NCBI RefSeq assembly: GCF_029910655.1
Contig: NZ_CP123897.1
Coordinates: forward strand, 3,895,547 to 3,959,546
DNA: 64,000 bases
Reading direction: 5' to 3'
Source of the DNA: Methylomonas sp. UP202
GTDB lineage: Bacteria > Pseudomonadota > Gammaproteobacteria > Methylococcales > Methylomonadaceae
Of the stretch, positions 1,094-42,185 are shown one piece after another; positions within the stretch are counted from its first letter, which is position 1, and each line of letters opens with the position of its first letter. Both the position numbers and the translations under genes were made by a program. The notes below the pieces were generated by a model. The model made no database searches. It worked only from the letters and a program-made list of their open reading frames with translations, and was not told the origin of the DNA.

Positions 1094-1843
1094 CTAAAAA
1101 ACCATGCTTTTCTTATTGAAGCCCAACACTCCCAGCAAACCTATCAAAAAAGACCACGCGGCAGCCGGCAGAGGAACTGGCGCCGCCGACAGCAGATTAC
1201 CCGAGTGATTTAAGTCAATATAAAAAGTTTTAGCATTACTTACGCCATCCAATGTAAAGGTAAAGCTACCCGAAAATTGTTTAGTCCCGGAGGAAAGGCC
1301 CGTGATTAAGGAGCTTGCCAACGCCTCGTCGAATTGATCGATCAATCCATCGCTATCGGTATAATGAATACCGACCGATGTGACGCCATCATTTCCAACG
1401 ATTTCAGTTGACAAGCTATAGGAATAACTCATGGTAATCGAATATGAGTTAACGCCTAAATTATTAAACCCAACATCGTACCAACCGACTTGACTATAGT
1501 CGATCGCACCCGCTGAAACGCCCCCCGCTAAATCAAATTCGTGGGAAAAGCTCGTGCCGACCTGTACCGGTTTAACGCCCGTGGCGAACTCCTCGGTCGT
1601 ATCAAAAACTACCCCGTCTCCGGTCAAGTCGATAAACGTCGCTGGAAAATCAGCTCCCGACCTTACGAACGATGCTGAAAACTCTAAGTCACTCAAATCG
1701 CTGGCCGACGTTTCAATATTTGCAATTGAAAAACTCAAATTGGCTAGACTTGAAAACGTAACGCTCGCCGCGGCGTTGTTAGTACCGGCCATTACAAGCG
1801 CGAACACAGCCACAATCAACACCGATTTTATTTTAAATCTCAT
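1094..1843 (-). CDS. PEP-CTERM-like exported protein
   Basis: 249 residues from the ATG at 1843, chosen over an upstream in-frame start because the signal peptide (MRFKIKSVLIVAVFALV, cleavage near AAAS) begins there and GGGGAT lies 6 bases upstream. The C-terminus is a sorting signal: VPLPAAAW, a hydrophobic helix (SFLIGLLGVLGF) and a basic end. This is the PEP-CTERM pattern read by exosortase in the inner membrane. The middle is beta-rich and Asp/Ser-rich, with no catalytic motif that I recognise. It lies 147 bp downstream of the di-heme peroxidase gene on the same strand, so co-expression is possible. It does not resemble the four tandem PEP-CTERM proteins further right beyond the tail. Confidence 0.8.
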   Translation of the reverse strand: MRFKIKSVLIVAVFALVMAGTNNAAASVTFSSLANLSFSIANIETSASDLSDLEFSASFVRSGADFPATFIDLTGDGVVFDTTEEFATGVKPVQVGTSFSHEFDLAGGVSAGAIDYSQVGWYDVGFNNLGVNSYSITMSYSYSLSTEIVGNDGVTSVGIHYTDSDGLIDQFDEALASSLITGLSSGTKQFSGSFTFTLDGVSNAKTFYIDLNHSGNLLSAAPVPLPAAAWSFLIGLLGVLGFNKKSMVF

Positions 1844-1990
1844 ATAATCCCCAAAACAGAATAAAACACGACACAAATTAGCAAATAACCGTGTTTTCAA
1901 TTTAGATAACGGACGAAGCCAACATCTACCGATATTAAATTTCAATTTAACATCGGACAAGCGGACGACGTCCACTTGTCTTAATGCTGA

Positions 1991-4255
1991 TTATTGCTCC
2001 AAAATATCCGCAAACGATGGCAACGGAGTATCCGCTCCATTCGCGCCGACGGCCGGAATCTCTAAATACTGATCCTTGGCCAAGTTGACGCTTCCAAAAT
2101 TCCCTTCATTCAAAGCGCCAAATTGATCGGCATGTCCGTGTGGCACCTTTATTTGCGGATGATCAAATGGCGCCTTCTCGTAGCGCACCCTCTCGTCGGT
2201 AAAACTCTTTAGTAACGCAATAATTGCATCTCTGGCCGGCGGATAACCGGCAAGGGTGATGTTGTTTACTAAGTTATCCTTGTTCGGATTATTAAAATTC
2301 CCTAATCTGGAATAAAATTCAATAACTTGCTCCAGGGTGGCCATACTACCGTTATGCATATAGGGACCTGTCAATTCAATATTTCTTAATCCGGGAATTT
2401 TAAACGTCCCGGCCGTGCTGGTCGCCAATTTGGTCGGCTTATTAACATAAACATTATTCGCCGTGGTCACGGTAGGAATATATTTCCTCGAGGCCGATAA
2501 ACAATTCTGATCCCGCAAAACACCTTCGCGACTCCCATCGATCTCCAGGGTGCCGTCGGCTTTAGTTATCGTTGCGCTGCTCACCAACGTTGAATTAACC
2601 GCCAATCCGATCGTAAAATCGCAAGCACGAGTCGTAGCGACCACGGAATCCTTGATAGCCGAACTGTTTCCTAGCAGGTATTGCACGTATTGGTCTGCAA
2701 ACGACAACGGGTTATTAAAATCGTCAACGCCACCTATCGCCATATCAGCGAGAGGATCGTTAACGCCCGTATTGGCAAACCCAACATCGACCAGTTTGAA
2801 AGCACCCGATAAATTTCGCCGATCGACAACATTTTTAAACGGGGTAATAGCGGCCGCGGCCGCGCCATTCCCTGTTCCTAATGCATTCGCACCGTAGGGG
2901 ATCCGAAAGTGAGATGGGCCGTAATAACTGGCTGGTGTCGTCGCTGTCACCAAGGTACTGTTGACGTCTATCGTCGCTGTCGTTAAGTTTGGTCCCGCAT
3001 GGCACAGATTGCAGTGATTGCTGACAAAAGCATTCAACCCTTCTTTTAACTGCTCAATTTCAGCCGCGGATTTGCCCAAGCCTTCCCATGTTGGCTCCAT
3101 GGAAGCAGGGTCACGCGGGCTCAAATCGATAGGCGCTTGATCGGATACCAGCGTTGCCTGATACATCTGCAACGCAATACCGAAAAACATAGAGAAGTTT
3201 GCTTCCATTTGGTTGTAGGGCGTCCCGGAACTCGGTGCTCCAAACGGCCCGGCACCACTGTAGGACCAATATTTGTTGTTGAAAGCTTGCTGCACCATCG
3301 TTCGGTACGTCAAATTCAGACCGTTTTTTAACTCGCTCGCGCCACTCAGACTATAGGCGCCTAGAACGCTATCCTGGGGATGAACCTGTTGGTTTTGCAA
3401 AGGTTGACGTAACAGCAATTTGCGACCGATGCTCGGCCAATCGCGTTGTTGGCAAGACATTTCGGCGTCATTTAGCGGCGGCGCCACGGAGAGCGACGCA
3501 AGCGATGAGTTGGTTAAATGCAGCCGTTGCTTACTAACGCTTCGAGCGCCGGTTTTTACCCAAACCCCGATTGGATTGGGATCTCGATCCCCCCAATTGT
3601 TAACACCGTTAAATACGTTGTTGGCGCGTCCGTCCCAGAAGTTTCGGTAATTGAAGATCGAATTGATAACGGATGGAGCGTTACGCGGCTCGACTTTCCG
3701 AGTCCCTATGGACCCTAGATGAAACACCGGATCGGCGGCACGAGCACACTGGTCTTCCATACCCGTCAATTTTGATGCGCCGGTAAACTGGCCGCTGAAT
3801 GTACCGGACGACGATACAACATCATCCGTGGAAAATAGGACACTGCTAGTATTGTCGAAAGGGTTATCGAAACGATAAGTCGGAAAGTCATCGGCATTCA
3901 GCTTGTGATCCGGTGCCGCCAATTCGAAAGTTTGCGCGGTTGCGGAAAGATGGCTTTTTCCACCTGGATTAATCTGATTTTGTACCCGACGATCGGCTCC
4001 GGCGTGAAAGTGGCATGAACCACACGCCATGCCGTCGCTCCCCACGTTAGTATCCCAAAACAACGCTTTTCCAAGCGCTATCGCCTTTTCCTTGTTGACG
4101 ACAATCGGATCGGGATGCGTAGCGTCCAGCAACAAACCCGGCACTGTCGGGACTGGAACGTCTTGTAGCGGCATCGGCAACGGGCCGTGGGCATTTCCGG
4201 CCTCCATGACCAGCACGCCGAAGCCGAAAATAAATAGATTTCTGTTTAAACTCAT
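1991..4255 (-). CDS. Long di-heme cytochrome c peroxidase (surface-associated type)
   Basis: 754 residues. An N-terminal signal peptide (about residues 1-23) is followed by two c-type heme sites, CGSCH at 78-82 and CNLCH at 415-419. The C-terminal third has the [15 protein letters not shown] segment typical of bacterial di-heme cytochrome c peroxidases and MauG relatives. At 754 residues it is about twice the length of ordinary periplasmic enzymes. This matches the long surface-associated peroxidases of methanotrophs (SACCP beside mopE in Methylococcus capsulatus, CorB beside corA in Methylomicrobium album); that comparison is from memory and not aligned. The expected reaction is reduction of H2O2, or oxidation of a protein partner as in MauG. 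In MopE and CorA a tryptophan is oxidised to kynurenine, so a neighbouring W-x-H protein is a conceivable substrate. A promoter with an upstream conserved motif lies at 4367-4429. Confidence 0.9.
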
Positions 4256-4510: not shown

Positions 4511-5383
4511 TTAGGCGCTAACGTTATTTCTACGATATGACAAAAGACCCAACAAGCCCGATCCAAACAGCCAAACAGCACCTGGGACAGGAACGTTAGA
4601 CGGGGGATTGACCGTACCAGCGGCAGCCATCGTAATGTTATCGATATAGAGATTAAATACCGGAGTCGTTAACGGACCATCCGATACCAACAAACCTTCG
4701 TCGTCGTATACCGCATCGGGATCGTAAGGCACCTTGCCCCAACCGCCGAAATGAATCCAAAAAGCACTAATGTTGCTAAAGTCGTCGTTAAGCAACAACG
4801 GCGAGGAGGGATCGGACCAATCGAAGGTAGACGGTAAAGTTTGATAGGCCACGCGATTTGCATAGTTAGTACCATCACCCGCCGTCAATGAAGGGTTTAT
4901 CGCATCGCTAAACCCAAGAATCTCCCAATACGCATTGGGGTCGGGATTTCCGGTTCCTTCGGGAGCCTCGAGATTGATAGACAACAAGCTGAATGCGCTT
5001 TTATCCCGCATTCTGACGTAAAGCCCGCCAGAGTCCGCGTGGTAGTGGATTTTTAAATTCGACGCGTCCAAATCGTCCACTTCCTGATGGACGTGCGCAC
5101 CGGAGTCCGCTTCGTCGCGCACGGTTCCGGCAACGATAACATTTTCGGTTACGCTGGACGCGGGAGTTGCGCCGGTGTTATTGGAAATGTAACAGTTTCC
5201 CGACCGCCCAGGTTCGGCGGGACAAGCCCCCGAAGCAGTCGAAGTCACGTTCGAATCGTGGTAAACCGCTACCGGAAAGTCGTTCAAGTTATAGGTCACC
5301 ATCGTCGTCATGGACGCGTTTGCCCCCCCCATCACAGACAGCAACGCAGTCGCTGTCGCAACGCCAAATATGCCTTTATTCAT
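4511..5383 (-). CDS. PEP-CTERM exported protein; domain shared with the mosaic porin
   Basis: 290 residues: a signal peptide (cleavage near GGANAS), an ectodomain of about 225 residues, and a PEP-CTERM tail (VPVPGAVWLFGSGLLGLL, basic end RRN). The ectodomain matches residues 303-520 of the 1396-residue protein at 7068-11258. Shared blocks include SGAH-x-H, YWEILGF, INP, DGTNYA, YQT, W-x-H, a DPD..[FY]D.EG segment, NGP/DGPL and DNI. The function is unknown. The HxH and W-x-H pairs could bind metal. The signal-peptide codons for MGG are a run of eight G, so slippage there would shift the frame before the mature protein and could switch the gene on and off. Confidence 0.8.
   Translation of the reverse strand: MNKGIFGVATATALLSVMGGANASMTTMVTYNLNDFPVAVYHDSNVTSTASGACPAEPGRSGNCYISNNTGATPASSVTENVIVAGTVRDEADSGAHVHQEVDDLDASNLKIHYHADSGGLYVRMRDKSAFSLLSINLEAPEGTGNPDPNAYWEILGFSDAINPSLTAGDGTNYANRVAYQTLPSTFDWSDPSSPLLLNDDFSNISAFWIHFGGWGKVPYDPDAVYDDEGLLVSDGPLTTPVFNLYIDNITMAAAGTVNPPSNVPVPGAVWLFGSGLLGLLSYRRNNVSA
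5323..5330 (-). repeat. G8 homopolymer in signal-peptide codons
   Basis: Eight C on the plus strand, read as G8 in codons 18-21 of the 4511-5383 gene. A one-base slip would frameshift the protein. C7 at 5558-5564 and C8 at 6837-6844 are nearby tracts of the same kind. Confidence 0.6.
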
Positions 5384-6505: not shown

Positions 6506-7093
6506 ATGAATTCGACAGTAAAGTCCAGCCTAGTGACGCCCCCGATAAAAATTTGTAGCGCCGAGTCTCGTGACGCTAGCCCAACCGTCGCGCTCCCTAG
6601 CGGTGGTTCGGAGCTCTCGCCGATGCCGGTCTGGCGGGTATGCCGTGATAGGTCCGAGCGCCACAGCTACCGCGCTGGATTCCTTCTGGCGAGACAGGAA
6701 GAACCTCGAGTCGTGTCCAAACCGATCTCAGTGGAAGGTGATGGCCGCGCGACGCGTTATACTCGCGCGAGCCATCCAAGATCCGAAGCGATTTCGGCCC
6801 AACGAGATGGACAATTCAGTAATCACAGTTCAAATACCCCCCCCGCTCCCCTCGGGCAAGCGCCCAAGACGCGAATTCGTTGGTCGACGAAGCCGGTCTA
6901 TCTGCTGATCGTTTGCGGCTTCACGCAAGGATGCGCCGACGTCGCGCCCTGGGAGCGGGGCAATCTGGCAAAACCGGAAATGGCCATCACTCCGAATCCC
7001 AGCCAAAACCATTTCCGAGATCACGTTTACACCAGTAAGGAAGCTTCGCAAGGCGGGCACGGAGGCAATGGAGGCGGCTGTGGGTGCAATTAA
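6506..7093 (+). CDS. DUF4266-domain lipoprotein, N-terminus uncertain
   Basis: The last 60 or so residues are a clear DUF4266 domain: a hydrophobic stretch with a lipobox-like TQGC, then ADVAPWERGNLAKPEM, HVYTSKEAS and a final Gly-rich GGGCGCN. DUF4266 proteins are small lipoproteins normally encoded just before a DUF3570 outer-membrane protein, as here (26-base overlap with the next gene). The ATG at 6506 has a good AAGGAA site, but the first 130 residues look unlike protein. A C8 tract at 6837-6844 joins this frame to another that starts at an ATG at 6807. With one base gained or lost there, a compact lipoprotein would be read. So the true start, and whether expression is slippage-dependent, is unresolved. 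Confidence 0.7.
   Translation: MNSTVKSSLVTPPIKICSAESRDASPTVALPSGGSELSPMPVWRVCRDRSERHSYRAGFLLARQEEPRVVSKPISVEGDGRATRYTRASHPRSEAISAQRDGQFSNHSSNTPPAPLGQAPKTRIRWSTKPVYLLIVCGFTQGCADVAPWERGNLAKPEMAITPNPSQNHFRDHVYTSKEASQGGHGGNGGGCGCN
6837..6844 (+). repeat. C8 homopolymer inside the DUF4266 reading frame
   Basis: Eight C in a row, about 50 bases before the lipoprotein signal. A one-base change would connect the ATG at 6807 with the DUF4266 frame. It could be a slippage switch or a sequencing error. Confidence 0.5.
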
Positions 7094-10000
7094 ACCGGAT
7101 TCGAACAAAGCGCTTGCAGCGCTAACGTCGGCCGCGCTAAGTTTACCGGGCCTGAATGCGTCAGCCGCGATTCCCGCTCAACAAATCCACACCAACGTCA
7201 GCTACGGGCACTATCAAGAAAGCGATGAGCGTATGCGTGTCGAGGTCTACCATGCCGATGCGGTGATTCCTCTTTCCGACCGGATCGAACTCAGCTTCAG
7301 TCTCGACCGCGACACTTACAGCGGTGCTACTCCGGCCTACTCGATTCCGACAGCAATAACCAACCAAGCCAAATACGTCTTGGGTGGCGGACGAGATTTA
7401 GTGGAATACGTCGATCTGGTCAGTTCGGCCTCCGGCGGCGTTACAGCGTCAGGGTTAACGGTATTGGGCGGCCTGAACTCCTTTAAGTCCTACGTAGACG
7501 GCATGGACGCCGCTCAAGACAACATCGACGCGGCCAGTCAAATCGCCAACTCGGGCTATTCGGCGCAATACGAAGCCGTAAAGACACCTATCGACGAGGC
7601 TTATCAAGCGTCGCTGAACGCACTAAGTACCCAGCTTAGCGCCGAAAAAGCCAGCGAGGATGCAAAAGCGGCGCTGGAAATATCCCCGTTGACGCAAGAC
7701 CTGAATGCCGACCTGTTGGCCTTGGATATTCAGTTGGCCGCCGACAAGGCGTTGCAATCGAGCGCCTATAATGCGTCGCTTGGCGCCATAGACGCCGAAT
7801 TGCCGGCGTTGCTTGAAAATTACAATGTCTCGGTCAACACGCTGCAATCCAACACGCAGAGCCAACGAAATGCGCTGCAATCGACTTACGATTCGTCGGT
7901 GACCACTCTAAACACGACCCGCACCCAAGCCGAAAACGACTACATTGCCAACACACTAGGCTCTAGGCCGTCAGACCCCATCAGCATTACGGCGACAAGG
8001 ACCATCGATTTTAACAACGTCAGCGGCGCGGCCTACTACGGCATGGCCAACGTCAACCCGACAGCCAGTGGCGTCTGCCGCCTGAATCAAGGCAGCCAAT
8101 GCGTTTACCCGTTCGGCACTTCCTCCCCCACCTTAAACAATTTCGCAGTCGGTATTGTCGAGGATCCAACGGCGTCCGGCGCGCATTTGCACTACGGGAA
8201 CGGACAACTGACCTACCATAACGATTCCAGCGGCGTTTATCTTCGGGCACAGACCGGCGCGGCATTCAGCTTGGACTCCATGGACTTTCTCGCGCCAATC
8301 AGCAACAGCAATCCGGGCACTGGCGCCGAGGATTATTGGGAAATCCTCGGATTCAACCAATCCATCAACCCCGACCTATATAATGGAGACGGTACCAACT
8401 ACGCCACCAAGATCGCTTATCAAACCGTCGCCAACGGCTTTAACGGCACTCTGACTCTGAACAGTTCGTTTGCCAACGTCAACGCCGTTTGGCTCCATTA
8501 TAAAGGCTACCCTAAAACGCCAACCGACCCGGACCAAGTTTTCGACGAGGAAGGCGTGGAAATTTCCAACGGGCCGCTACAAATCAAATCTTTCTCGGTA
8601 ACCCTGGACAACATCGTTGTGTCGCCGGTATCGACGCCAACCAGTATGCAAACGGCCTGGGACAACACGCTACAGCTTTATCGAACTACCTATTCCAATA
8701 CAGTCTATAACCCTTCGTACACCACGCTGACCACCAACTACAATTCGCAATTGAGCGCGCTGAACGCTTCGGAACAAAGCGAGCTGACCCGCTTGGGAAA
8801 CGAATACACCGCCGCCCGTACTGATTTAATCGCGGAACATCAAGCCGAAATAGCGGCTTTAGACAGCAATTACCAAGCTCAATTGGCGCAATTGGACAGC
8901 GCGAATCTGAGCGCTCGGCAACAAGCCACCGCCAGTTACAATGCGGCGACTCAGGCGATCAACGACAAATACGCCGCGAATAAAAACGCGTTAACCGCCC
9001 AATACAACAGTAACGTTGCCACCGTTACCGACAACTACAACCTACAGACCCAGCCTCTCACCGACACCTACAATCAACAAATCAGCCAACAGACGGCGCT
9101 CGACGCCGAACTCAGCAAACAAGCGCAGATCGCCCAATACGCGGCAATCCTGAACAAGCTGGTACCCACCGGCAACGCCACGGTACAACGCTTTCAGTTG
9201 CAACCGCAGGAAACTCGTTCGATGCCGCAATTCGGCACGCGCTATTACTTCGATAATACGACATTGGGCGTCACTGGCGGATTTTCCGAGGAGCCGGATT
9301 TTCTATCCAACTTTGGCAATGTCGACATCAGTCACGAGTTCAATAATAAGTTGACGAACGTGTCGGCCGGTTACGGCATGACCAGTAACACAATCAACCG
9401 CAGTTCCGACAGCCACGCCGGACACGCCGGACACAGCGAACATTTCGGTGCGGCCGACTACCCGCGCCTGAATGAGGAAAGCAAATTTCACAACTTTACC
9501 GCCAGTATTTCGCAAGTATTCTCCAAAAACAGCGTGGCTAAGCTCAGCACCAGTTTTACACATCAAACCGGCTATCTGAGCAACCCTTACAAATTCGTCT
9601 ATGTTCGAGGTGAAATCTCGCCCGAAGAATACTACCAACTAGCAACCGATGCCGAACACGTTGACTGGAAGCGCATCACTCAGCTGGAAGTAGTCGGTAC
9701 GGAACTGTTTCGGGAAAATCGCCCCAGCCAGCGCAATCAATGGTCGCTATCCAGCCGCTTAAACCAGCATGTTCCCGCGCTGGATGCTTCCTTGCATTTG
9801 GACTATCGTTTTTATCTTGACGACTGGGGAATCAACTCCCACACCTTCGAGTTGAAATGGTACCAATCGCTTCCTTGGGGGCTTACCGTGACACCCGGAA
9901 TCCGCTATTACTCACAGTCTCAAGCGGACTTTTTCGCACCCTATTTCTTATCACCGCGCGCGGATGGGTTTTATACCAGCGATTTTCGCCTGTCGGCATT

Positions 10001-11258
10001 CGGCGACTTGAGCGGAGGCTTGACAATAGGTAAGCAGTTTGCGCGCGGCGTTAAATTAGAAGGCGGATTCGAGTACGTGACGCACGCCGGTTCGCTCAAA
10101 TTGGGCGGAGGCGGCATCGGCGACTACGCCGATTTCGACTACTTTATGGCCCACGCTAACTTGAGCGTCGATTTCGCTGCCAAAGGCTTGTTCGAGGAAG
10201 GCTCGAGTCACGAGAGCCATCACCACCATCACGTCCACGGCGCGCCGCCACCCGCCGGGATCATGTTCGGCCACATGATGAATCAAGCCGACTCGATCAT
10301 GGTCGGCTATCGATTTATGTATAACGTCCAAAGCGGCGCCATGCTGCGCGGCAACAGCCCCGCCAGCGACGCGGCAATCGTCGCCGGGGGCTGTAACGGC
10401 TTTAGCAACGGCTGCATCTACAAGCCGACCAAGATGCACATGCAGATGCACATGCTGGATCTGATGTATGCGCCGACCGACTGGTTGAATCTGATGGTCA
10501 TGCCGCAGCTAATGAGTATGGACATGAGCATGAGCAATCCGATCCGCGCCTTCGCCGACCAAGAAGAGCTTAGCGAATACGGCGGACATGGCGGCGCGTA
10601 CCACACTAGCAACGATATTGGCGATACCGTTGTTACCGCGTTAATTAAGCTGGCGGATGACGGTAAACACCATTTACACGCGGGCATTGGAGTCAGCGCA
10701 CCAACTGGCAGTATCGACGCGCAGATGAGCCAAGGCTCTTTGAAAAACAACGCTAAGACGGACGTCACGCCGGGCTCGCCGGTTTTACAAGATTACGGCA
10801 TGCAATTAGGTAGCGGCACCTGGGATTTCAAACCCAGTCTGACTTACGTCGGCGGCATGGACGATTGGGGCTGGGGCATGCAATTGAGCGGTATCAAACG
10901 CTTGGAAAAAAACAAGTACGGTTACGCCTACGGCGACCTTTTTCAAGCCAGCGGCTGGGGCAGCTATCGGATATTCGATTGGCTTTCGGCGTCCATTCGA
11001 GGGGTTTACACTTGGCAAGACAAGATTCAAGGCTCCACGACACAAAACCACGAACCGACAGCCCCAGTGGATTATCCAACCAACTACGGCGGGCGCTATT
11101 GGGATATCGGTTTCGGCCTAAACGCTTACGTTCCTGACGGCCGCTTCGCCGGCCACAGTTTCGGCGTGGAATGGCTTCAACCGGTAGGGACCGATCACCA
11201 AGGTTATCAACTTGACCGGGACGGCGCCCTGACCGCCACCTGGAACTATGCGTTCTAG
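7068..11258 (+). CDS. Mosaic outer-membrane protein: split DUF3570 barrel, inserted ectodomain, second barrel
   Basis: 1396 residues. Residues 1-35 form a signal-like region. Residues 40-125 (VSYGHYQESDERM, DRDTYSGATP) are the start of a DUF3570 porin. Residues 165-300 and 525-695 are Ala/Gln/Asn-rich, repetitive, probably coiled-coil arms. Residues 303-520 are homologous to the ectodomain of the PEP-CTERM protein at 4511-5383. DUF3570 resumes at about 700-1040 with amphipathic strands. After a His-rich linker (SHESHHHHHVH, 1047-1057), residues 1060-1396 form a second, Met/His-rich barrel-like domain (MHMQMHMLDLMYAP, MPQLMSMDMSMS) ending in Tyr-Ala-Phe, as outer-membrane proteins do. A stalked domain appears to be inserted into one barrel, with a second barrel fused behind it. 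The Met/His content suggests copper contact; this is inference. The start at 7068 overlaps the DUF4266 gene; a GTG at 7080 is an alternative. Confidence 0.8.
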   Translation: MEAAVGAIKPDSNKALAALTSAALSLPGLNASAAIPAQQIHTNVSYGHYQESDERMRVEVYHADAVIPLSDRIELSFSLDRDTYSGATPAYSIPTAITNQAKYVLGGGRDLVEYVDLVSSASGGVTASGLTVLGGLNSFKSYVDGMDAAQDNIDAASQIANSGYSAQYEAVKTPIDEAYQASLNALSTQLSAEKASEDAKAALEISPLTQDLNADLLALDIQLAADKALQSSAYNASLGAIDAELPALLENYNVSVNTLQSNTQSQRNALQSTYDSSVTTLNTTRTQAENDYIANTLGSRPSDPISITATRTIDFNNVSGAAYYGMANVNPTASGVCRLNQGSQCVYPFGTSSPTLNNFAVGIVEDPTASGAHLHYGNGQLTYHNDSSGVYLRAQTGAAFSLDSMDFLAPISNSNPGTGAEDYWEILGFNQSINPDLYNGDGTNYATKIAYQTVANGFNGTLTLNSSFANVNAVWLHYKGYPKTPTDPDQVFDEEGVEISNGPLQIKSFSVTLDNIVVSPVSTPTSMQTAWDNTLQLYRTTYSNTVYNPSYTTLTTNYNSQLSALNASEQSELTRLGNEYTAARTDLIAEHQAEIAALDSNYQAQLAQLDSANLSARQQATASYNAATQAINDKYAANKNALTAQYNSNVATVTDNYNLQTQPLTDTYNQQISQQTALDAELSKQAQIAQYAAILNKLVPTGNATVQRFQLQPQETRSMPQFGTRYYFDNTTLGVTGGFSEEPDFLSNFGNVDISHEFNNKLTNVSAGYGMTSNTINRSSDSHAGHAGHSEHFGAADYPRLNEESKFHNFTASISQVFSKNSVAKLSTSFTHQTGYLSNPYKFVYVRGEISPEEYYQLATDAEHVDWKRITQLEVVGTELFRENRPSQRNQWSLSSRLNQHVPALDASLHLDYRFYLDDWGINSHTFELKWYQSLPWGLTVTPGIRYYSQSQADFFAPYFLSPRADGFYTSDFRLSAFGDLSGGLTIGKQFARGVKLEGGFEYVTHAGSLKLGGGGIGDYADFDYFMAHANLSVDFAAKGLFEEGSSHESHHHHHVHGAPPPAGIMFGHMMNQADSIMVGYRFMYNVQSGAMLRGNSPASDAAIVAGGCNGFSNGCIYKPTKMHMQMHMLDLMYAPTDWLNLMVMPQLMSMDMSMSNPIRAFADQEELSEYGGHGGAYHTSNDIGDTVVTALIKLADDGKHHLHAGIGVSAPTGSIDAQMSQGSLKNNAKTDVTPGSPVLQDYGMQLGSGTWDFKPSLTYVGGMDDWGWGMQLSGIKRLEKNKYGYAYGDLFQASGWGSYRIFDWLSASIRGVYTWQDKIQGSTTQNHEPTAPVDYPTNYGGRYWDIGFGLNAYVPDGRFAGHSFGVEWLQPVGTDHQGYQLDRDGALTATWNYAF

Positions 11259-11985
11259 CCGGCGGCATTACTGGTCGCGCACCCGCTATTCATCGCGCGG
11301 AGGATCTCGGTAACAGCCAATACCGGTCGGGTTAGCGAACTCTGACCCGATGCCATACCTTTCATATACCGAAATTTAATTACGAGACGTATAACAAAAC
11401 TCCCAGAGGCCAACCAGGCTTCCCGCAACATGATCCATCACCTCGGGTGAACCGACGCACCGCAACCGATGCGGCCTCGCAATATTGGAGAACGAATATC
11501 AACACCGCCCGCTGCCGGCGGAACCGTAATAAAAACAATGTTATTTAACGCATCATGCACGCTATATCCCACACTTTTTAAAAGCACACTGCCTGCCGGT
11601 TTGCGCGGAGCGTCCAACCCGAGCACGACCGCGAAGTTATCGGATTAGAAAAATAAATATATTTCAATAACTTATATTCATCCCACCGTCCGCGTGCGAA
11701 TCACATACGGAGCAGGGTTCTCAACCGATTCGGGCATGCATCCTGCTTGCTCTAACGTTGCGTTTGACCGTAGTTTTTCGGAGCCCGGCCACGCAACCAA
11801 ACGACACCGAACATTCGCCGACAGACATTGAGCTGCGAACCGATGCTTCGAGAAGCGAATCACGAATTCGTTGCATCCGTCAAGCCACACCAGCGGCAAA
11901 ACAAGTGTTACCGCTTCGTAAGCGAATGGCTGGTAACCGCGCGTCGTTTTGGCGATATTCGTCAATTCAAACCCAGGAACAGATC
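11259..11985. other. 0.7 kb intergenic region with motif A
   Basis: No recognisable gene. It contains motif A copy 2 at 11538-11549. The frame of the next gene is open upstream to 11758, but that stretch lacks protein character and the signal peptide starts at 11986. Confidence 0.5.
11538..11549 (+). promoter_or_regulatory. Motif A, copy 2 (ATGTTATTTAAC)
   Basis: Identical to copy 1 at 5649-5660, about 440 bases above the first PEP-CTERM gene of the duplicated unit. Confidence 0.35.
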
Positions 11986-13029
11986 ATGCTCAACCCTAAA
12001 CCACTTTCCCGCGTCATCGCCATGCTCTTGTCGGGCAGCGCGCTGACCGGATTCGGCTCTTCCGTTGCGAATGCCGCCGCGGTAACCTCCTACAACGCCT
12101 TCAATCACGATCGGTCGGTGCCGAACGCACTGGTTTCTGGTGGCAACGGCACCGACGGCTGGATGCGGACCACCACCAACGCTTGCGGTACTGCGGGCAG
12201 TACCTGCGGTAACGGTCCCGCTACCTTTGACAGTCCAAACAAAACATTATCCGGTGGTAACGCCGCGGTACCCTGGGTCGGCAACGATCCGCGCAACGAT
12301 GCCAATTTCAATTACGCCGGCAATCAAACGCTGAACTGGACCGCGGTGATCGGCGCCGGCGATACCGCGGTGATCTCCAAACTGGACTCCAACGCCCGTT
12401 ACGCCGGCACGGCATTAGCGGACGGCACTACCTTTAACTATGCCGATATCGACACCGCCCGCGGTGCTTGGCACGACGGCGGCAAATCCCCCGGCAGCAC
12501 CCCGGAAGCCGGCGTCGGCTGGAAGCACGACACCGACATAGGCTTGTTCAAATCGACGGTTACCCAGGTCGTGACCTTGTCGATTCACAGTCTTCTGGAA
12601 AACGGTGCCGCCGATCTTACCCCGGACTACGGTTTCACGGTGTTCGAGGGCATGGATACATCCACCGGCAACTACGGCCACCACGGTTCCTGGCACGAAT
12701 GGGATAGCCAAACGGCCGTCGGTGTTGGCGACAACGCCTATCAAATTACCACTGCCAACCCGTTCACGATTGCCGGCGGCGGCGACGGCAACGGCTTGGA
12801 AGCCGACAAATTGATCCTGGACGACGTCTACGGCAACAACGCCAGCTTTTTGGCCGAAGCCGGCAAGGTCTACACCATTTTCTTGGGCGGTTTTCAAGGC
12901 GGCGGCTGGACCTATACCAGAAACGACTACGAATTGACGATTTCCGCGGCCCCGGTTCCGTTGCCGGGCGCCGTTTGGCTGTTCGGTAGCGCGATCGGCT
13001 TGCTGGGCTGGCAGCGGCGCAAGGCCTGA
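11986..13029 (+). CDS. PEP-CTERM surface protein A1, MopE/CorA-like metal-site pattern
   Basis: 347 residues from the ATG at 11986, which has AGGAA 6 bases upstream and begins the signal peptide (cleavage near VANA-AAV). The tail is VPLPGAVWLFGSAIGLLGW plus RRKA, a PEP-CTERM signal. In the middle is GWKHDTDIGLFKS (W179, H181), then a beta-strand region ending FTVFEGMDTSTGNYGHHGSWH (H232, H233, H237). MopE of Methylococcus capsulatus binds Cu(I) through a kynurenine made from Trp130, His132 and His203, that is W-x-H plus a later His. The same order of residues is seen here, so a copper-binding CorA/MopE-like role is plausible, but overall homology was not tested. Nearly identical to A2 at 15047-16090. 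The next gene (B1) starts 69 bases on and is probably co-transcribed. Confidence 0.75.
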   Translation: MLNPKPLSRVIAMLLSGSALTGFGSSVANAAAVTSYNAFNHDRSVPNALVSGGNGTDGWMRTTTNACGTAGSTCGNGPATFDSPNKTLSGGNAAVPWVGNDPRNDANFNYAGNQTLNWTAVIGAGDTAVISKLDSNARYAGTALADGTTFNYADIDTARGAWHDGGKSPGSTPEAGVGWKHDTDIGLFKSTVTQVVTLSIHSLLENGAADLTPDYGFTVFEGMDTSTGNYGHHGSWHEWDSQTAVGVGDNAYQITTANPFTIAGGGDGNGLEADKLILDDVYGNNASFLAEAGKVYTIFLGGFQGGGWTYTRNDYELTISAAPVPLPGAVWLFGSAIGLLGWQRRKA

Positions 13030-13098
13030 TTCGGATTATGGTTAGGCCCCGGTATGATGCCGATGTTCTTAAAACGATTTTTTTAATGTAGAGACCCT

Positions 13099-14034
13099 AT
13101 GAAATACACCACACTCTCCAAAGCCATCGCTTACGCTCTAGCCGGCGGCTCGCTGACGCTGGGCGCGATCAGCGACGCCTCCGCGTCGGCCACCACGATG
13201 TATAACCTGACCACGGCCTATGGCGCCCCCTGCGCGACCGCCGCCTGCGTACCCAAGCTGGGCGGCGGTACCGACGGCTGGCTTTACGGACTTGGCGGCA
13301 GCTCCAACGGTACCGATACTTCGATCGCGGCGTGGGCCGGCACCACCGGCAGCCACAAAACCCCGTTCGGCTACACCGGCGCCCACCTGAACTGGGGCTT
13401 GTCGATGACCGGCTACGACAGCGCCGAAATCTCCAGTGCCGACGCCTTCACCCGCTACGGAGTGCACGCCGATATCGACACCGCCAAGGGCGCCTGGAGC
13501 GATGCGATTTCACCGGATACCAACGACGCGACTAGACATGCCAGCGGCTGGCGCCACGACCTCGAGTTCGGCCTGTTCAAATCCAAGGTGGACGCCCGAA
13601 TCACTTTGTCGGCTTCCGGCGTGAATCAGACCGGCACCCAATTCGGCTTCACGATCTTCCAAGGCATGAGCACCAACGCCGATTACTTCCACCACGACGC
13701 CTGGAACTCCAACAACAATATTTTCGGCCTTACTCAAGATTCGTTACCGGATGGCTATACCACGTTCGCGGTCGGCGACATTGTCGCCTATAGCGTCGGC
13801 GGCGCCACCCCCAGCAACCTCAACACGATCAGCTTCGACGTACTGGCCGACCAGGTCTATACCATCGTGCTGGGCGGCTATCGTAACGGCGGATGGGGCG
13901 ATACCATCGACGGGTACAAACTCAGCGTGACTTCGGCACCGCCCAGCTCGGTACCGGCACCCGGCGCGGTCTGGCTATTCGGCACGGCGTTGGCCGGCTA
14001 CATCGGCGTTCAACGTCGCAAGCGCTCAGTCTAA
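13099..14034 (+). CDS. PEP-CTERM surface protein B1, MopE/CorA-like metal-site pattern
   Basis: 311 residues with a signal peptide (cleavage near SDASA) and the tail VPAPGAVWLFGTALAGY followed by RRKRSV. It is a distant relative of A1: both have ADIDTA-[RK]-GAW, then GW-x-HD (here W151, H153), GLFKS, FGFT-[IV]-F-x-GM-x-T and a later His pair (H198, H199) before a Trp. This W-x-H...H layout resembles the copper site of MopE. The final strands (VYTIVLGGYRNGGW) also match A1. It follows A1 by 69 bases and ends at a stable hairpin. The function is not known; surface copper handling is inference. Confidence 0.75.
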   Translation: MKYTTLSKAIAYALAGGSLTLGAISDASASATTMYNLTTAYGAPCATAACVPKLGGGTDGWLYGLGGSSNGTDTSIAAWAGTTGSHKTPFGYTGAHLNWGLSMTGYDSAEISSADAFTRYGVHADIDTAKGAWSDAISPDTNDATRHASGWRHDLEFGLFKSKVDARITLSASGVNQTGTQFGFTIFQGMSTNADYFHHDAWNSNNNIFGLTQDSLPDGYTTFAVGDIVAYSVGGATPSNLNTISFDVLADQVYTIVLGGYRNGGWGDTIDGYKLSVTSAPPSSVPAPGAVWLFGTALAGYIGVQRRKRSV

Positions 14035-14043
14035 TCGCGACGG

Positions 14044-14059
14044 CCGCCACGGATGGCGG
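14044..14059 (+). terminator. Hairpin after B1
   Basis: CCGCCA-CGGA-TGGCGG, 10 bases after the B1 stop. The equivalent hairpin in unit 2 is followed by ATTTTC, but here the T-rich stretch is missing and the duplicated sequence ends. A second perfect inverted repeat (GATTGTTAG/CTAACAATC, 14084-14092 and 14103-14111) follows. Confidence 0.45.
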
Positions 14060-14371
14060 CGATTATCCACCGCCGACGGGAAAGATTGTTAGTCTGGGAC
14101 GGCTAACAATCGCACCTCCCTCGCTCAAATCCTTCGACGTCGCTGGCTGTCAGCACCACCTCCAAATTTTACTCAACAGGCGGATCGACGTCTTGACTTT
14201 CGCAAGACTTGACGCGTTTCTCGATACCTTGCAGTTTTCTAGCCCAAAAGCCACGCGGCGCTAGCACCTCCAAATACCGCCCAAGCTTCACTCGCCTGCG
14301 CTACGCCTCCAAGGTTTTGCGGCGACGGCATGGTATGAATCACCAAAGCCACTGATCCTTATCACTAAACT

Positions 14372-14383
14372 ATGTTACTTAAA
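14372..14383 (+). promoter_or_regulatory. Motif A, copy 3 (ATGTTACTTAAA)
   Basis: It differs from copies 1 and 2 at two positions, so one arm of the inverted repeat is imperfect. It lies 11 bases before motif B copy 3, the only place where the two motifs stand side by side. Confidence 0.3.
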
Positions 14384-14394
14384 CTAACAAACGC

Positions 14395-14413
14395 GTCAAA
14401 CCACCTATTTTTG
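14395..14413 (+). promoter_or_regulatory. Motif B, copy 3 (GTCAAACCACCTATTTTTG)
   Basis: 18 of 19 bases match copy 1, which lies above the peroxidase gene promoter. It points towards the second duplicated unit, about 630 bases downstream. No good promoter boxes were found at the matching distance here. Confidence 0.4.
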
Positions 14414-15046
14414 GAAAGCACACCTGCTTCCGGGCCTATTGGCAATTACAGATTTCGCCACTGGCTTACTGATCGTGTCGCTAATTTTTAGCTGAATTTC
14501 AATATCTTGGAACAAGCATTATGTCAACGCAGGTTGTCGCATCAATTTGGCGCAAATAATGCTTTCTTTATTCCGTACTCAGTCGCAAGCACCCGCAGCC
14601 AAGCTACGCAACTAGGGGCTCCGGGAGTTTGCTGGGGTGCGTTACCCGGCTCAACGTCCTGTTTTGCAACACTGGAGATAAGATGAAGATTAACTTTCCT
14701 GTTTCTGATTACCACGGTTTTCAGTTTTATCTCGAGCCCTTCGACTGCGATCAGGCGAGCCTAGCCGAAGGGAAATAACAAGGCCCCGCCAAACCGCTGC
14801 TGCTTCGACTGAGCTCTAGGCTATGCCGCCCGCAAGGTTCTGCCTTCCGCATCCATGTAAGTTGAGCACGAACGGTGGGAGAAAAACGTCATTTCGAGAA
14901 GTTATTTTTAGCGGAATCCTGAATCGGAAAAACGCTACAGCTTGACCGCGTCAGCGCTTGACCGAAATTTCGGCGATACGGCGCGGAACACCGACCGTCG
15001 TGCGACGCCAAGTCGGTATTCGTTAATTCAAACCCAGGAACAGATC

Positions 15047-16090
15047 ATGCACAATCCTAAACCACTTTCCCGCGTCATCGCCATGCTCTTATCGGGCAGC
15101 GCGGTGGCCGGATTCGGCTCTTCCGTTGCGAATGCCGCTGCGGTAACCTCCTACAACGCCTTCAATCACGATCGATCGGCACCGAACATACTGGTCTCAA
15201 GCGGTTCCGGAGGCACCGACGGCTGGATGCGGACCAGCGCCAACGCTTGCGGTACCGCAGGCAGTACCTGCGGTAACGGTCCTGCAACCTATAACAACCC
15301 GAATAAAGCCGTTGCGGAAGGCAATGCCTCGGTGCCTTGGGTCGGCAACGATCCGCGCGGCGCTAGTTTCGATTACGTTGGCCGCCAAACGTTAAACTGG
15401 ACCGCCGTCATTGATGCCGGCGATACCGCGGTAATCTCCAAACTGGACTCCAACGCCCGTTACGCCGGCACGGCATTGGCGGACGGCACCATCTTTAACT
15501 ACGCCGATATCGACACCGCCCAGGGCGCTTGGCACGACGGCGGCAAGTCGCCGAAGAGCACTCCCGGCGCCGGCGTCGGCTGGAAGCACGACACCGACAT
15601 AGGCTTGTTCAAATCGACGGTGACCCAGGTCGTGACCTTGTCGATTCACAGTCTTCTGGAAAACGGTGCCGCCGATCTTACCCCGGACTACGGCTTCACG
15701 GTGTTCGAGGGCATGGATACATCCACCGACAACTACGGCCACCACGGTTCCTGGCATGCATGGGACAACCAAGCGGCCGTCGGTGTTGGCGACAACGCCT
15801 ATCAAATTACCGACCCCAACCCGTTCACGATTGCCGGCGGCGGCGACGGCAACGGCCTGGAAGCCGACAAGTTGATTCTGGACGATGTCTACGGCAACAA
15901 CGCCAGCTTTTTGGCCGAAGCCGGCAAGGTTTACACCATCTATTTGGGCGGCTTTCAAGGCGGCGGCTGGACCTTTACCAGAAACGACTACGAATTGACG
16001 ATTTCCGCAGCCCCAGTTCCGTTGCCGGGCGCCGTTTGGCTGTTCGGTAGCGCAATCGGCTTGCTGGGCTGGCAACGGCGCAAGGCCTGA
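15047..16090 (+). CDS. PEP-CTERM surface protein A2, paralogue of A1
   Basis: 347 residues from the ATG at 15047 (AGGAA upstream, same as A1). Signal peptide, GWKHDTDIGLFKS, the GHHGSWH histidine cluster and the PEP-CTERM tail are all conserved with A1. Differences gather near residues 45-115 and around the histidine cluster (STDNYGHHGSWHAWDNQ). Conservation of the W-x-H and HH residues while surrounding positions drift suggests that they matter. The likely role is as for A1: an exosortase-processed surface protein, possibly binding copper. Confidence 0.75.
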   Translation: MHNPKPLSRVIAMLLSGSAVAGFGSSVANAAAVTSYNAFNHDRSAPNILVSSGSGGTDGWMRTSANACGTAGSTCGNGPATYNNPNKAVAEGNASVPWVGNDPRGASFDYVGRQTLNWTAVIDAGDTAVISKLDSNARYAGTALADGTIFNYADIDTAQGAWHDGGKSPKSTPGAGVGWKHDTDIGLFKSTVTQVVTLSIHSLLENGAADLTPDYGFTVFEGMDTSTDNYGHHGSWHAWDNQAAVGVGDNAYQITDPNPFTIAGGGDGNGLEADKLILDDVYGNNASFLAEAGKVYTIYLGGFQGGGWTFTRNDYELTISAAPVPLPGAVWLFGSAIGLLGWQRRKA

Positions 16091-16158
16091 TTCGGATGAT
16101 GGTTAGGCCCCGGCATGATGCCGATGTTCTTAAAACGATTTTTTAATGTAGAGACCCT

Positions 16159-17103
16159 ATGAAATACACCACACTCTCCAAAGCCATCGCTTACACCCTG
16201 GCCGGCGGCTCGCTGACGCTGGGCGCGATCAGCGACGCCACCGCGTCGGCCACCACGATGTATAACCTGACCACGGCCTACGGCGCCCCCTGCGCGACGG
16301 CCGCCTGCGTACCCAAGTTGGGCGGCGGCGTGGATGGTTGGCTATACGGTTTCGGCGGCAGCTCCAACGGCACCGATACTTCGATCGCGGCCTGGGCCGG
16401 CACCACCGGCAGCCACAAAACCCCGTTCGGCTACACCGGCGCCCACCTGAACTGGGGCTTGTCGATGACCGGCTACGACAGCGCCGAAATCTCCAGCGCC
16501 GACGCCTTCACCCGCTACGGAGTGCACGCCGATATCGACACCGCCAAGGGCGCCTGGAGCGATGCCGTGACCGGGGATACCAACGACCCTAACGACCCAG
16601 CCAAACACGCCGCCGGCTGGCGCCACGATCTTGAATTCGGCTTGTTCAAATCGGACATCGACGCCCGAATCACCTTGTCGGCTTCCGGCGTGAATCAAAG
16701 CGGTACCCAATTTGGTTTCACAATATTCCAAGGCATGAGCACCAACGCCGACTACTACCACCATGGCTTGTGGAATTCGGACAACAATATTTACGGTTTA
16801 ACCCAGTACTCGTTGCCGGATGGCTGGACCACGTTCGCGGTCGGCGACATTGTCGCCTACAGCGTCGGCGGCGCCACCCCCAGCAATCTCAACACGATTA
16901 GCTTCGACGTACTGGCCGGCCAAGTCTACACCATCGTGCTGGGCGGCTATCGTAACGGCGGATGGGGCGATACCATCGACGGGTACAAACTCAGCGTGAC
17001 TTCGGCACCGCCCAGCTCGGTACCGGTACCCGGCGCGGTTTGGCTATTCGGCACGGCGTTGGTCGGCTACATCGGCGTTCAACGTCGCAAGCGCTCGGTC
17101 TAA
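16159..17103 (+). CDS. PEP-CTERM surface protein B2, paralogue of B1
   Basis: 314 residues, with the same signal peptide and tail as B1 and three extra residues (NDP repeat, TNDPNDP) near position 142. GWRHDLEFGLFKS and the YYHH pair are kept. It follows A2 by 68 bases and ends just before a terminator-like hairpin. Together A2-B2 form the second transcription unit of the duplication. Confidence 0.75.
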   Translation: MKYTTLSKAIAYTLAGGSLTLGAISDATASATTMYNLTTAYGAPCATAACVPKLGGGVDGWLYGFGGSSNGTDTSIAAWAGTTGSHKTPFGYTGAHLNWGLSMTGYDSAEISSADAFTRYGVHADIDTAKGAWSDAVTGDTNDPNDPAKHAAGWRHDLEFGLFKSDIDARITLSASGVNQSGTQFGFTIFQGMSTNADYYHHGLWNSDNNIYGLTQYSLPDGWTTFAVGDIVAYSVGGATPSNLNTISFDVLAGQVYTIVLGGYRNGGWGDTIDGYKLSVTSAPPSSVPVPGAVWLFGTALVGYIGVQRRKRSV

Positions 17104-42110: not shown

Positions 42111-42185
42111 GCGGGCGTCGTATAACGGCCATTACCTTGGCTTCCCAAGCCAAAGACGTGGGTTCGACTCCCATCGCCCGCTCCA
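42111..42185 (+). tRNA. tRNA-Gly (anticodon CCC)
   Basis: The acceptor stem GCGGGCG pairs with CGCCCGC. The anticodon stem TTGGC/GCCAA encloses the loop TTCCCAA, giving anticodon CCC. The T-arm GTGGG-TTCGACT-CCCAT is intact, and CCA is encoded (42183-42185). D-arm present. All four arms fold cleanly. Confidence 0.93.

Follow-up and report, generated by a model that had tools for sequence, protein, structure and literature searches.

A DUF3570 protein of Methylomonas with a stalked ectodomain inserted in its barrel and a second barrel fused behind it, a candidate outer-membrane metal-acquisition protein

Introduction

The gene described here lies at positions 7068 to 11258 (+) of a 64,000-nucleotide stretch of Methylomonas sp. 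UP202 (contig NZ_CP123897.1, positions 3,895,547 to 3,959,546), hereafter the window, and encodes a DUF3570 barrel, an ectodomain inserted in that barrel on a stalk, and a second Met/His-rich barrel on one chain. Among the closest described systems is that of the ApbE-flavinylated DUF3570 proteins, which occur with DUF4266, a thioredoxin-like protein and DsbD; the available text of PMC8238504 describes their flavinylation motifs and a test of these in Chlorobium luteolum, where both motifs had to be mutated to abolish flavinylation. Our locus shares with that system the DUF3570 domain, the S-G-A-T motif and a DUF4266 partner with a CxC motif directly upstream, and differs from it in a stalked ectodomain insert of ~540 residues after the motifs, a degenerate second motif, a fused second barrel and ApbE genes that lie elsewhere.

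A further parallel is offered by the methanotroph pairs CorA/CorB and MopE/SACCP (accessible portions of PMC3912023 and PMC3423442). CorA is surface-located, carries a Trp-derived Kyn62-x-His64 and His114, and is cotranscribed with the MauG-like CorB; CorB/SACCP has been proposed to help make the kynurenine of CorA/MopE, and knocking out the enzyme in M. alcaliphilum gave quicker growth on methane rather than slower (PMC3912023). MCA2590, by implication the MopE-linked SACCP, appears in the available part of PMC4831470 among surface proteins of the MauG family, its listed change being 12.0 in cells producing soluble methane monooxygenase (sMMO) against those producing the particulate form (pMMO). 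Common to these pairs and our locus are a surface protein (predicted in ours) that has a conserved Trp-x-His with a further His, a MauG-like diheme enzyme nearby and a methanotroph host. In contrast to CorA/MopE, where a His follows 50-71 residues downstream of the Trp-x-His, the other conserved His residues lie upstream of it; our domain is also embedded in a barrel, and no sequence homology was detectable.

The reading put forward here, tentatively and with confidence somewhat short of even, is that of a methanotroph protein that acquires metal at the outer membrane, copper being the most likely metal, and that would combine capture, flavin reduction and Cu(I) passage. The locus has a candidate capture domain, reductase and channel on one chain near a candidate modifying enzyme.

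Results

Architecture of the fusion protein

The gene forms an uninterrupted frame of 1396 codons. Its product matches PF12094 (DUF3570) at 264 bits against a cut-off of 25, in two stretches that flank the insert and reach both domain ends, which places it in the family; in the whole-genome DUF3570 search the two pieces scored 230 and 42.6 bits. The second DUF3570 gene of the genome, ~16 kb upstream, encodes 939 amino acids (aa) and has no insert. AlphaFold2 models were made of residues 36-1050 (5 alignment rows) and of the ectodomain alone (4 rows), and local confidence is given as the predicted local distance difference test (pLDDT). The parts are as follows.

7068 to 11258 (+): DUF3570/stalked ectodomain/second-barrel fusion, 1396 aa, single open reading frame (ORF), DUF3570 match at 2.2e-78
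7173 to 7433 (+): N-terminal part of barrel 1, ~3 strands by eye, with SGAT at residues 85-88 (nt 7320-7331) and a degenerate second motif, SSAS, at 119-122 (DUF3570 N-terminal stretch, motif scan)
7473 to 7958 (+): stalk arm 1, residues 136-297, predicted as a single long helix (pLDDT 68-91 at ~166-295, 36-68 nearer the barrel)
7968 to 8639 (+): ectodomain, residues 301-524, a jelly-roll in the model, with H373, H375, H384, D386, W475, H477 and C337/C345 (homology to 4511-5383(-), conserved columns, model)
8640 to 9149 (+): stalk arm 2, residues 525-694, predicted as a single long helix (pLDDT 64-91 at ~526-675, lower nearer the barrel)
9153 to 10175 (+): remainder of barrel 1, residues 696-1036, ending in SVDF, with a variable His-rich loop near 784-793 (best DUF3570 stretch 628-1026; indels in two loops before the linker)
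10176 to 10253 (+): His-rich linker, residues 1037-1062 (sequence)
10254 to 11255 (+): barrel 2, residues 1063-1396 (stand-alone relatives match PF13557)

A sequence-only reading of the window had described a DUF3570 barrel interrupted by coiled-coil-like arms that hold a domain homologous to a neighboring PEP-CTERM protein, with a second Met/His-rich barrel after a His-rich linker, and each of these elements was recovered. Its statement that it knew of no described protein with this order agrees with the open-licence library searched, where one paper in 5.39 million names DUF3570 or DUF4266. The flavinylation motif, the MauG-type neighbor, the gene conversion and the conservation across the genus formed no part of that reading. 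The mosaic architecture is firm, and the assignment of two barrels rests on homology. In the model of residues 36-1050 no barrel was resolved; both halves of barrel 1 had pLDDT ~25 and were left uninterpreted, and barrel topology was taken from the sequence.

Conservation of the layout

Three samples were searched, consisting of 61 genomes (the genome itself and 60 relatives), 201 genomes of the family and 274 genomes at class level. The ectodomain profile was present in 19 of the 61 genomes, always inside a DUF3570 gene, which in one genome (G028) is truncated at a contig end. The family sample gave 19 ectodomain matches at E ≤ 0.001, four of them weak (E 7e-6 to 7e-4), and the regions taken from it added 5 embedded cases, for 24 embedded loci in all (L038 and L047 counted once each). 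Because these 24 loci share the same order of parts, a frameshift or assembly join within the gene, which the sequence-only reading had named as what would overturn it, was ruled out. The odd domain order is all that speaks for two genes wrongly joined in sequencing or annotation, and the fusion-gene matches listed show no internal stop; we regard such an artefact as scarcely conceivable. No relatives were found on viral contigs in the viral-contig scan.

The layout extends to three neighboring genes. In all 17 loci uncut by a contig end, a DUF4266 gene lies directly upstream of the fusion, and the surrounding region includes both a gene for a free-standing ectodomain and a gene for a large diheme protein. 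The former runs on the opposite strand at 14 of these 17 loci and starts 0.9-9 kb from the latter. In the window these genes are as follows.

6506 to 7093 (+): DUF4266 protein with a lipobox by eye and a C-terminal CxC (Pfam 9.5e-23), overlapping the DUF3570 gene by 26 nt
4511 to 5383 (-): free-standing ectodomain protein with a PEP-CTERM-like sorting tail, divergent from the barrel operon, 45% identical to fusion residues 306-523
1991 to 4255 (-): MauG/MbnH-type diheme enzyme, 754 aa, two CxxCH motifs and Tyr648 (CCP_MauG 9.4e-15, alignments)

The true DUF4266 start is probably near 6866, judging from homologues of mostly ~75 aa. The sorting tail of the free-standing protein scored 20.0 bits, just below the Pfam cut-off of 20.7. 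The genome has two exosortase genes and two PmoA/AmoA-family genes, from which we conclude that the host is a methanotroph, probably able to sort proteins of the PEP-CTERM type.

Presence of the fusion gene varies within the species, unless an assembly missed it, since the inserted barrel gene is missing from one genome of the same species (99% complete, in 240 contigs), which keeps the uninserted paralogue. Before it ends, the contig with this paralogue (L100/L101) shows a further MauG-type gene and PEP-CTERM proteins with W-x-H. At locus L075 an uninserted DUF3570 fusion of 885 aa adjoins a free-standing ectodomain gene, an arrangement that resembles the state preceding insertion or following loss. 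A 1971-aa ORF (L034 103-6018, the same as locus L038 5461-11376) has two ectodomains, spaced by longer stretches, ahead of the second half of the barrel. Measured against the open-licence library searched, four features are new here: the His/Trp set of the ectodomain near a MauG-type enzyme, the exchange of copies reported below, the double-ectodomain relative and the same-species genome without the gene. The ectodomain also occurs in giant repeat-rich proteins (L069 3-4829(-) and L070 3068-10036(-)), of which that in L069 matches DUF4347, cadherin-like and Ig-like families.

Stalk and side of the membrane

The two arms proposed in the sequence-only reading correspond to the two long AlphaFold2 helices, and their lengths covary (r = 0.94, slope 0.83, median difference 12) over 16 dereplicated loci, shared descent being uncorrected. 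Arm 1 ranges from 52 to 190 residues and arm 2 from 36 to 180, and the correlation was matched in 0 of 20,000 shuffles. The set of 16 leaves out the near-identical L041, L045, L046, L049, L068 and L073 and the odd L038 and L047; with near-duplicates included the result was r = 0.95 (n = 22). Arm ends were set by motif, those of L052 from the first flavin motif only. In an antiparallel coiled coil the lengths of the arms must match, and the covariation points firmly to an antiparallel coiled-coil hairpin stalk of several-fold variable length.

The insert sits after the SGAT motif region, motif and insert both following strand 3 of ~16 by an eye count. Before the linker, the remainder of barrel 1 varies in length at the His-rich loop near 784-793 and at a loop near 860-877, and strand parity puts both on the same face as the insert. 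From by-eye strand parity and loop-length variability, the insert loop would be extracellular if the N-terminus is periplasmic. The earlier suggestion of a soluble domain on a surface stalk beside a metal pore is partly supported and remains the best reading: the stalk holds, strand parity and loop-length variability suggest the surface location, and conserved residues suggest the metal.

Exchange between embedded and free-standing ectodomains

Fusion residues 306-523 are 41-45% identical to the free-standing neighbor. In the barrel tree (38 rows) three changes are needed for the 24 inserted copies, which may have one origin. In the ectodomain tree (53 rows), where bootstrap is not fully settled and several long branches meet, embedded and free-standing copies are mixed and at least 10 changes are forced by well-supported branches.

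In the pair L072/L073, 57 sites inside the domain group the copies by genome and 13 group them by orthology, and the flanks are orthologous. The two copies of L072 share an exact tract of 105 bp; over three consecutive segments of 20 codons their DNA is 93-100% identical, where the embedded copies of L072 and L073 have 67-72%. A shorter tract, in the middle only, was seen in L044/L046 (over the whole domain 27 sites versus 139, with three bins holding 22 of the 27). The sharp flank pattern of L072/L073 was rejected as a recombination boundary; embedded and free-standing genes share no homology outside the domain, so the flank contrast is expected and the count inside is the evidence. These site counts argue firmly for gene conversion that homogenises embedded and free-standing copies in several relatives. 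Repeated re-insertion, or one copy re-derived from the other, would look similar. In L072, L073, L046, L050 and L037, ectodomain copies within a genome were more alike than, or partly as alike as, orthologues. The window's own pair (44% identity) shows no recent exchange.

Candidate metal site, flavin motif and second barrel

The conserved columns of the ectodomain were counted over 53 rows, excluding L047 and one free-standing row (L039), as in the tree; the 24 embedded rows represent 23 loci (L038 twice, L047 absent), and the free-standing copy of L075 is in none of these counts. HxH was kept in 53/53 rows, the third His in 51/53, the Trp in 52/53 and the His of W-x-H in 46/53. The model of the domain alone had pLDDT 62.6 and a predicted template-modelling score (pTM) of 0.68, so that fold matches are read as hints only. 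With the DUF4465/BtuJ proteins (available text of PMC13398666) it shares the overall jelly-roll in this low-confidence model, and it differs from them in giving no profile match, in lacking the [GN]TPAY motif and in having the His/Trp set. MopE/CorA were not among the 50 matches listed per fold search, which does not imply their exclusion. Searches of PDB sequences with the ectodomain, each barrel and the PEP-CTERM family 11758/13099 gave no match or weak ones (best E 0.054), taken as chance.

MauG and MbnH oxidise Trp in partner proteins. The diheme neighbor has the marks of this class, two c-type heme motifs and a Tyr that replaces the axial Met: Tyr648 aligns with MauG residue 294, which we take to be the axial position, and with the MbnH Tyr, where a peroxidase has Met. 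This Tyr was kept in 19/19 diheme ORFs examined. With ~750 aa the enzyme is longer than the solved MauG and MbnH chains (355-388), and it falls far below the NCBIfam cut-offs of TIGR04039 (MbnH; 82.6 versus 362.85) and TIGR03791 (MauG; 54.7 versus 443.85), so by profile score it is a diheme enzyme of a related class and belongs to neither equivalog. Six MauG-type matches were found in the genome at E ≤ 1e-60.

The S-G-A-[ST] motif was intact in 17/17 proteins in the first scan and in 21 of the 22 embedded-type proteins with the N-terminus present. ApbE-flavinylated DUF3570 proteins carry two [ST]GA[ST] motifs, and the fusion has one intact motif, the other being SSAS. Because both motifs had to be mutated to abolish flavinylation in the available account (PMC8238504), a single site may be enough. 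The genome has three ApbE genes.

In barrel 2, thirteen residues form a ladder (M1066, H1069, M1078, M1123, M1125, M1127, H1128, M1129, M1133, M1143, M1145, M1153 and M1245) kept in 26-27 of 27 fused copies. The i, i+2 spacing of 1123/1125/1127/1129 would put these Met residues on one strand face. Among the same 27 relatives the linker His residues H1051, H1055 and H1057 were kept in 22, 24 and 25. Seven stand-alone copies were compared at the positions occupied by Met, His, Trp or Cys in the window; twelve ladder positions were kept in 7/7 and M1143 in 6/7, and M1070 and H1179 are among the Met/His kept in fused copies only. Barrel-2 relatives occurred in 42 of the 274 class-level genomes, the own genome included, those outside fusions being mostly frames of ~340-430 aa. 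All four stand-alone relatives scanned lie above the cut-off of PF13557 (Phenol_MetA_deg) and belong to that family; the fusion's own barrel 2, which differs in being fused behind DUF3570, gave no PF13557 match and is linked to the family through them. In ten regions viewed by eye, the gene neighbors of barrel-2 relatives had no common theme (in L087 and L093 an overlapping ORF took the place of the barrel-2 gene, and L094 is itself fused to DUF3570 and not a stand-alone copy).

Proposed role and alternatives

In the copper-acquisition reading, ApbE would attach flavin mononucleotide (FMN) in the SGAT motif, the ectodomain would bind copper through H373/H375/H384 and W475-x-H477, and W475 would be oxidised by the diheme enzyme, possibly yielding kynurenine as found in MopE/CorA. 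Supplied by the DUF4266 CxC protein and a thioredoxin, the flavin would reduce Cu(II), and Cu(I) would pass the Met-lined second barrel into the periplasm and on to pMMO. Topology, flavin, metal, Trp oxidation and transport are inferred; the order of parts, the covarying arms, the motif, the conserved residues, the neighboring genes and the exchange in relatives are shown. On our best reading the fusion would work like CorA/MopE–CorB, though possibly without common descent. In its most specific form the proposal is a single-chain copper intake with a covalent surface flavin, a coiled-coil stalk of variable length, a MauG-modified Trp copper site unrelated to MopE/CorA, a Met-lined Cu(I) channel and a domain exchangeable by gene conversion, which we consider doubtful. 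The locus would also exemplify a chain with two outer-membrane barrels, and a barrel loop that serves as the slot for a domain shared with a neighboring gene by gene conversion.

Copper is a best guess for a methanotroph, and several observations weigh against copper acquisition. No ApbE gene was found near the fusion locus, the three of the genome lying elsewhere, and there was no thioredoxin among the nine window genes scanned. The second flavinylation motif is degenerate in 21/21 embedded-type proteins where it was found, and one embedded-type fusion (L071 6934-10758(-)) has GGAS in place of the flavin motif and is the one embedded copy without the third His; it is possibly a non-flavinylated variant. 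The His of W-x-H is absent in 6 of the 27 free-standing copies and 1 of the 24 embedded ones. MauG-type genes also occur without the ectodomain (38 versus 19 of the 61 genomes). At twelve of its 13 positions the ladder is as complete in the seven stand-alone relatives, which come from other families of the class, and so it is not special to methanotrophs. The ectodomain profile matched no PDB sequence at E ≤ 10, MopE/CorA included, in a profile search rather than a direct comparison, the presence of MopE in the set being taken from the code 2VOV (available text of PMC3912023). The best fold matches of the ectodomain were B12-binding DUF4465 proteins and carbohydrate-binding modules.

These fold matches suggest two other roles. 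Cobamide (B12) scavenging, in which a surface ectodomain distantly related to DUF4465/BtuJ would capture B12, appears very unlikely, as none of 36 ectodomains matched the DUF4465 profile (E ≤ 0.1), the motif [GN]TPAY of the HI loop (taken from the available text of PMC13398666) was present in 0 of 53, no Rfam cobalamin riboswitch reached the gathering score in the window or in three other loci, and the fold hint comes from a model of such low pLDDT. The jelly-roll might otherwise bind extracellular polysaccharide as a displayed adhesin domain varied by recombination with its neighbor, but a sugar site that varies would not usually keep HxH, H and WxH nearly invariant, conversion makes the copies within a genome alike, and a MauG-type enzyme accompanies 17/17 uncut loci; we think this role unlikely. 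Equally unlikely, in our estimate, is a protein for extracellular electron transfer or other surface redox work without a dedicated role in copper. Here the surface flavin and the diheme enzyme would exchange electrons, and the stalked ectodomain would serve as a docking site for redox partners or reduce metals, iron among them. It would account for the flavinylation motif and the MauG-type diheme neighbor, and an iron transporter is found in some DUF3570 gene clusters (available text of PMC8238504). Against it, the ectodomain His/Trp set looks like a binding or modification site and the Met ladder fits a soft metal. As we understand the class, a MauG-type Tyr also suits Trp/Tyr oxidation better than electron shuttling.

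Other genes of the locus and the window

The remaining features of the window are the following.

1094 to 1975 (-): gene of a small PEP-CTERM-like partner, separated from the preceding diheme gene by 16 nt
11758 to 17103 (+): four further PEP-CTERM proteins in two near-duplicate pairs (copies 90-91% identical), with W-x-H and then a His ~50 residues on
42111 to 42182 (+): tRNA gene, the sole Rfam match at the gathering score in the window

The product of 1094-1975 was set aside as a substrate of the diheme enzyme; no His, and no Trp outside the tail, was conserved at ≥85% in an alignment of 20. Of the 19 proteins of the 11758/13099 family, 12 were kept for alignment, and in these both W-x-H and a His 52 residues further along (window numbering) are invariant; near-duplicates were dropped together with L100, L101, L106 and L107, where the pattern is not at the same columns. 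This spacing recalls CorA residues 62/64/114, and no sequence link to MopE/CorA was found.

Several MauG-type paralogues lie near other W-x-H PEP-CTERM proteins, with none in L103 and L104. At 1.44-1.46 Mb of the genome (C1; L102, L103), three MauG-type diheme genes lie within ~19 kb amid PEP-CTERM genes, and two ApbE genes lie ~17-24 kb beyond this cluster. The diheme gene at L050 4199-6504(-) is in two pieces, ORFs of 547 and 232 aa.

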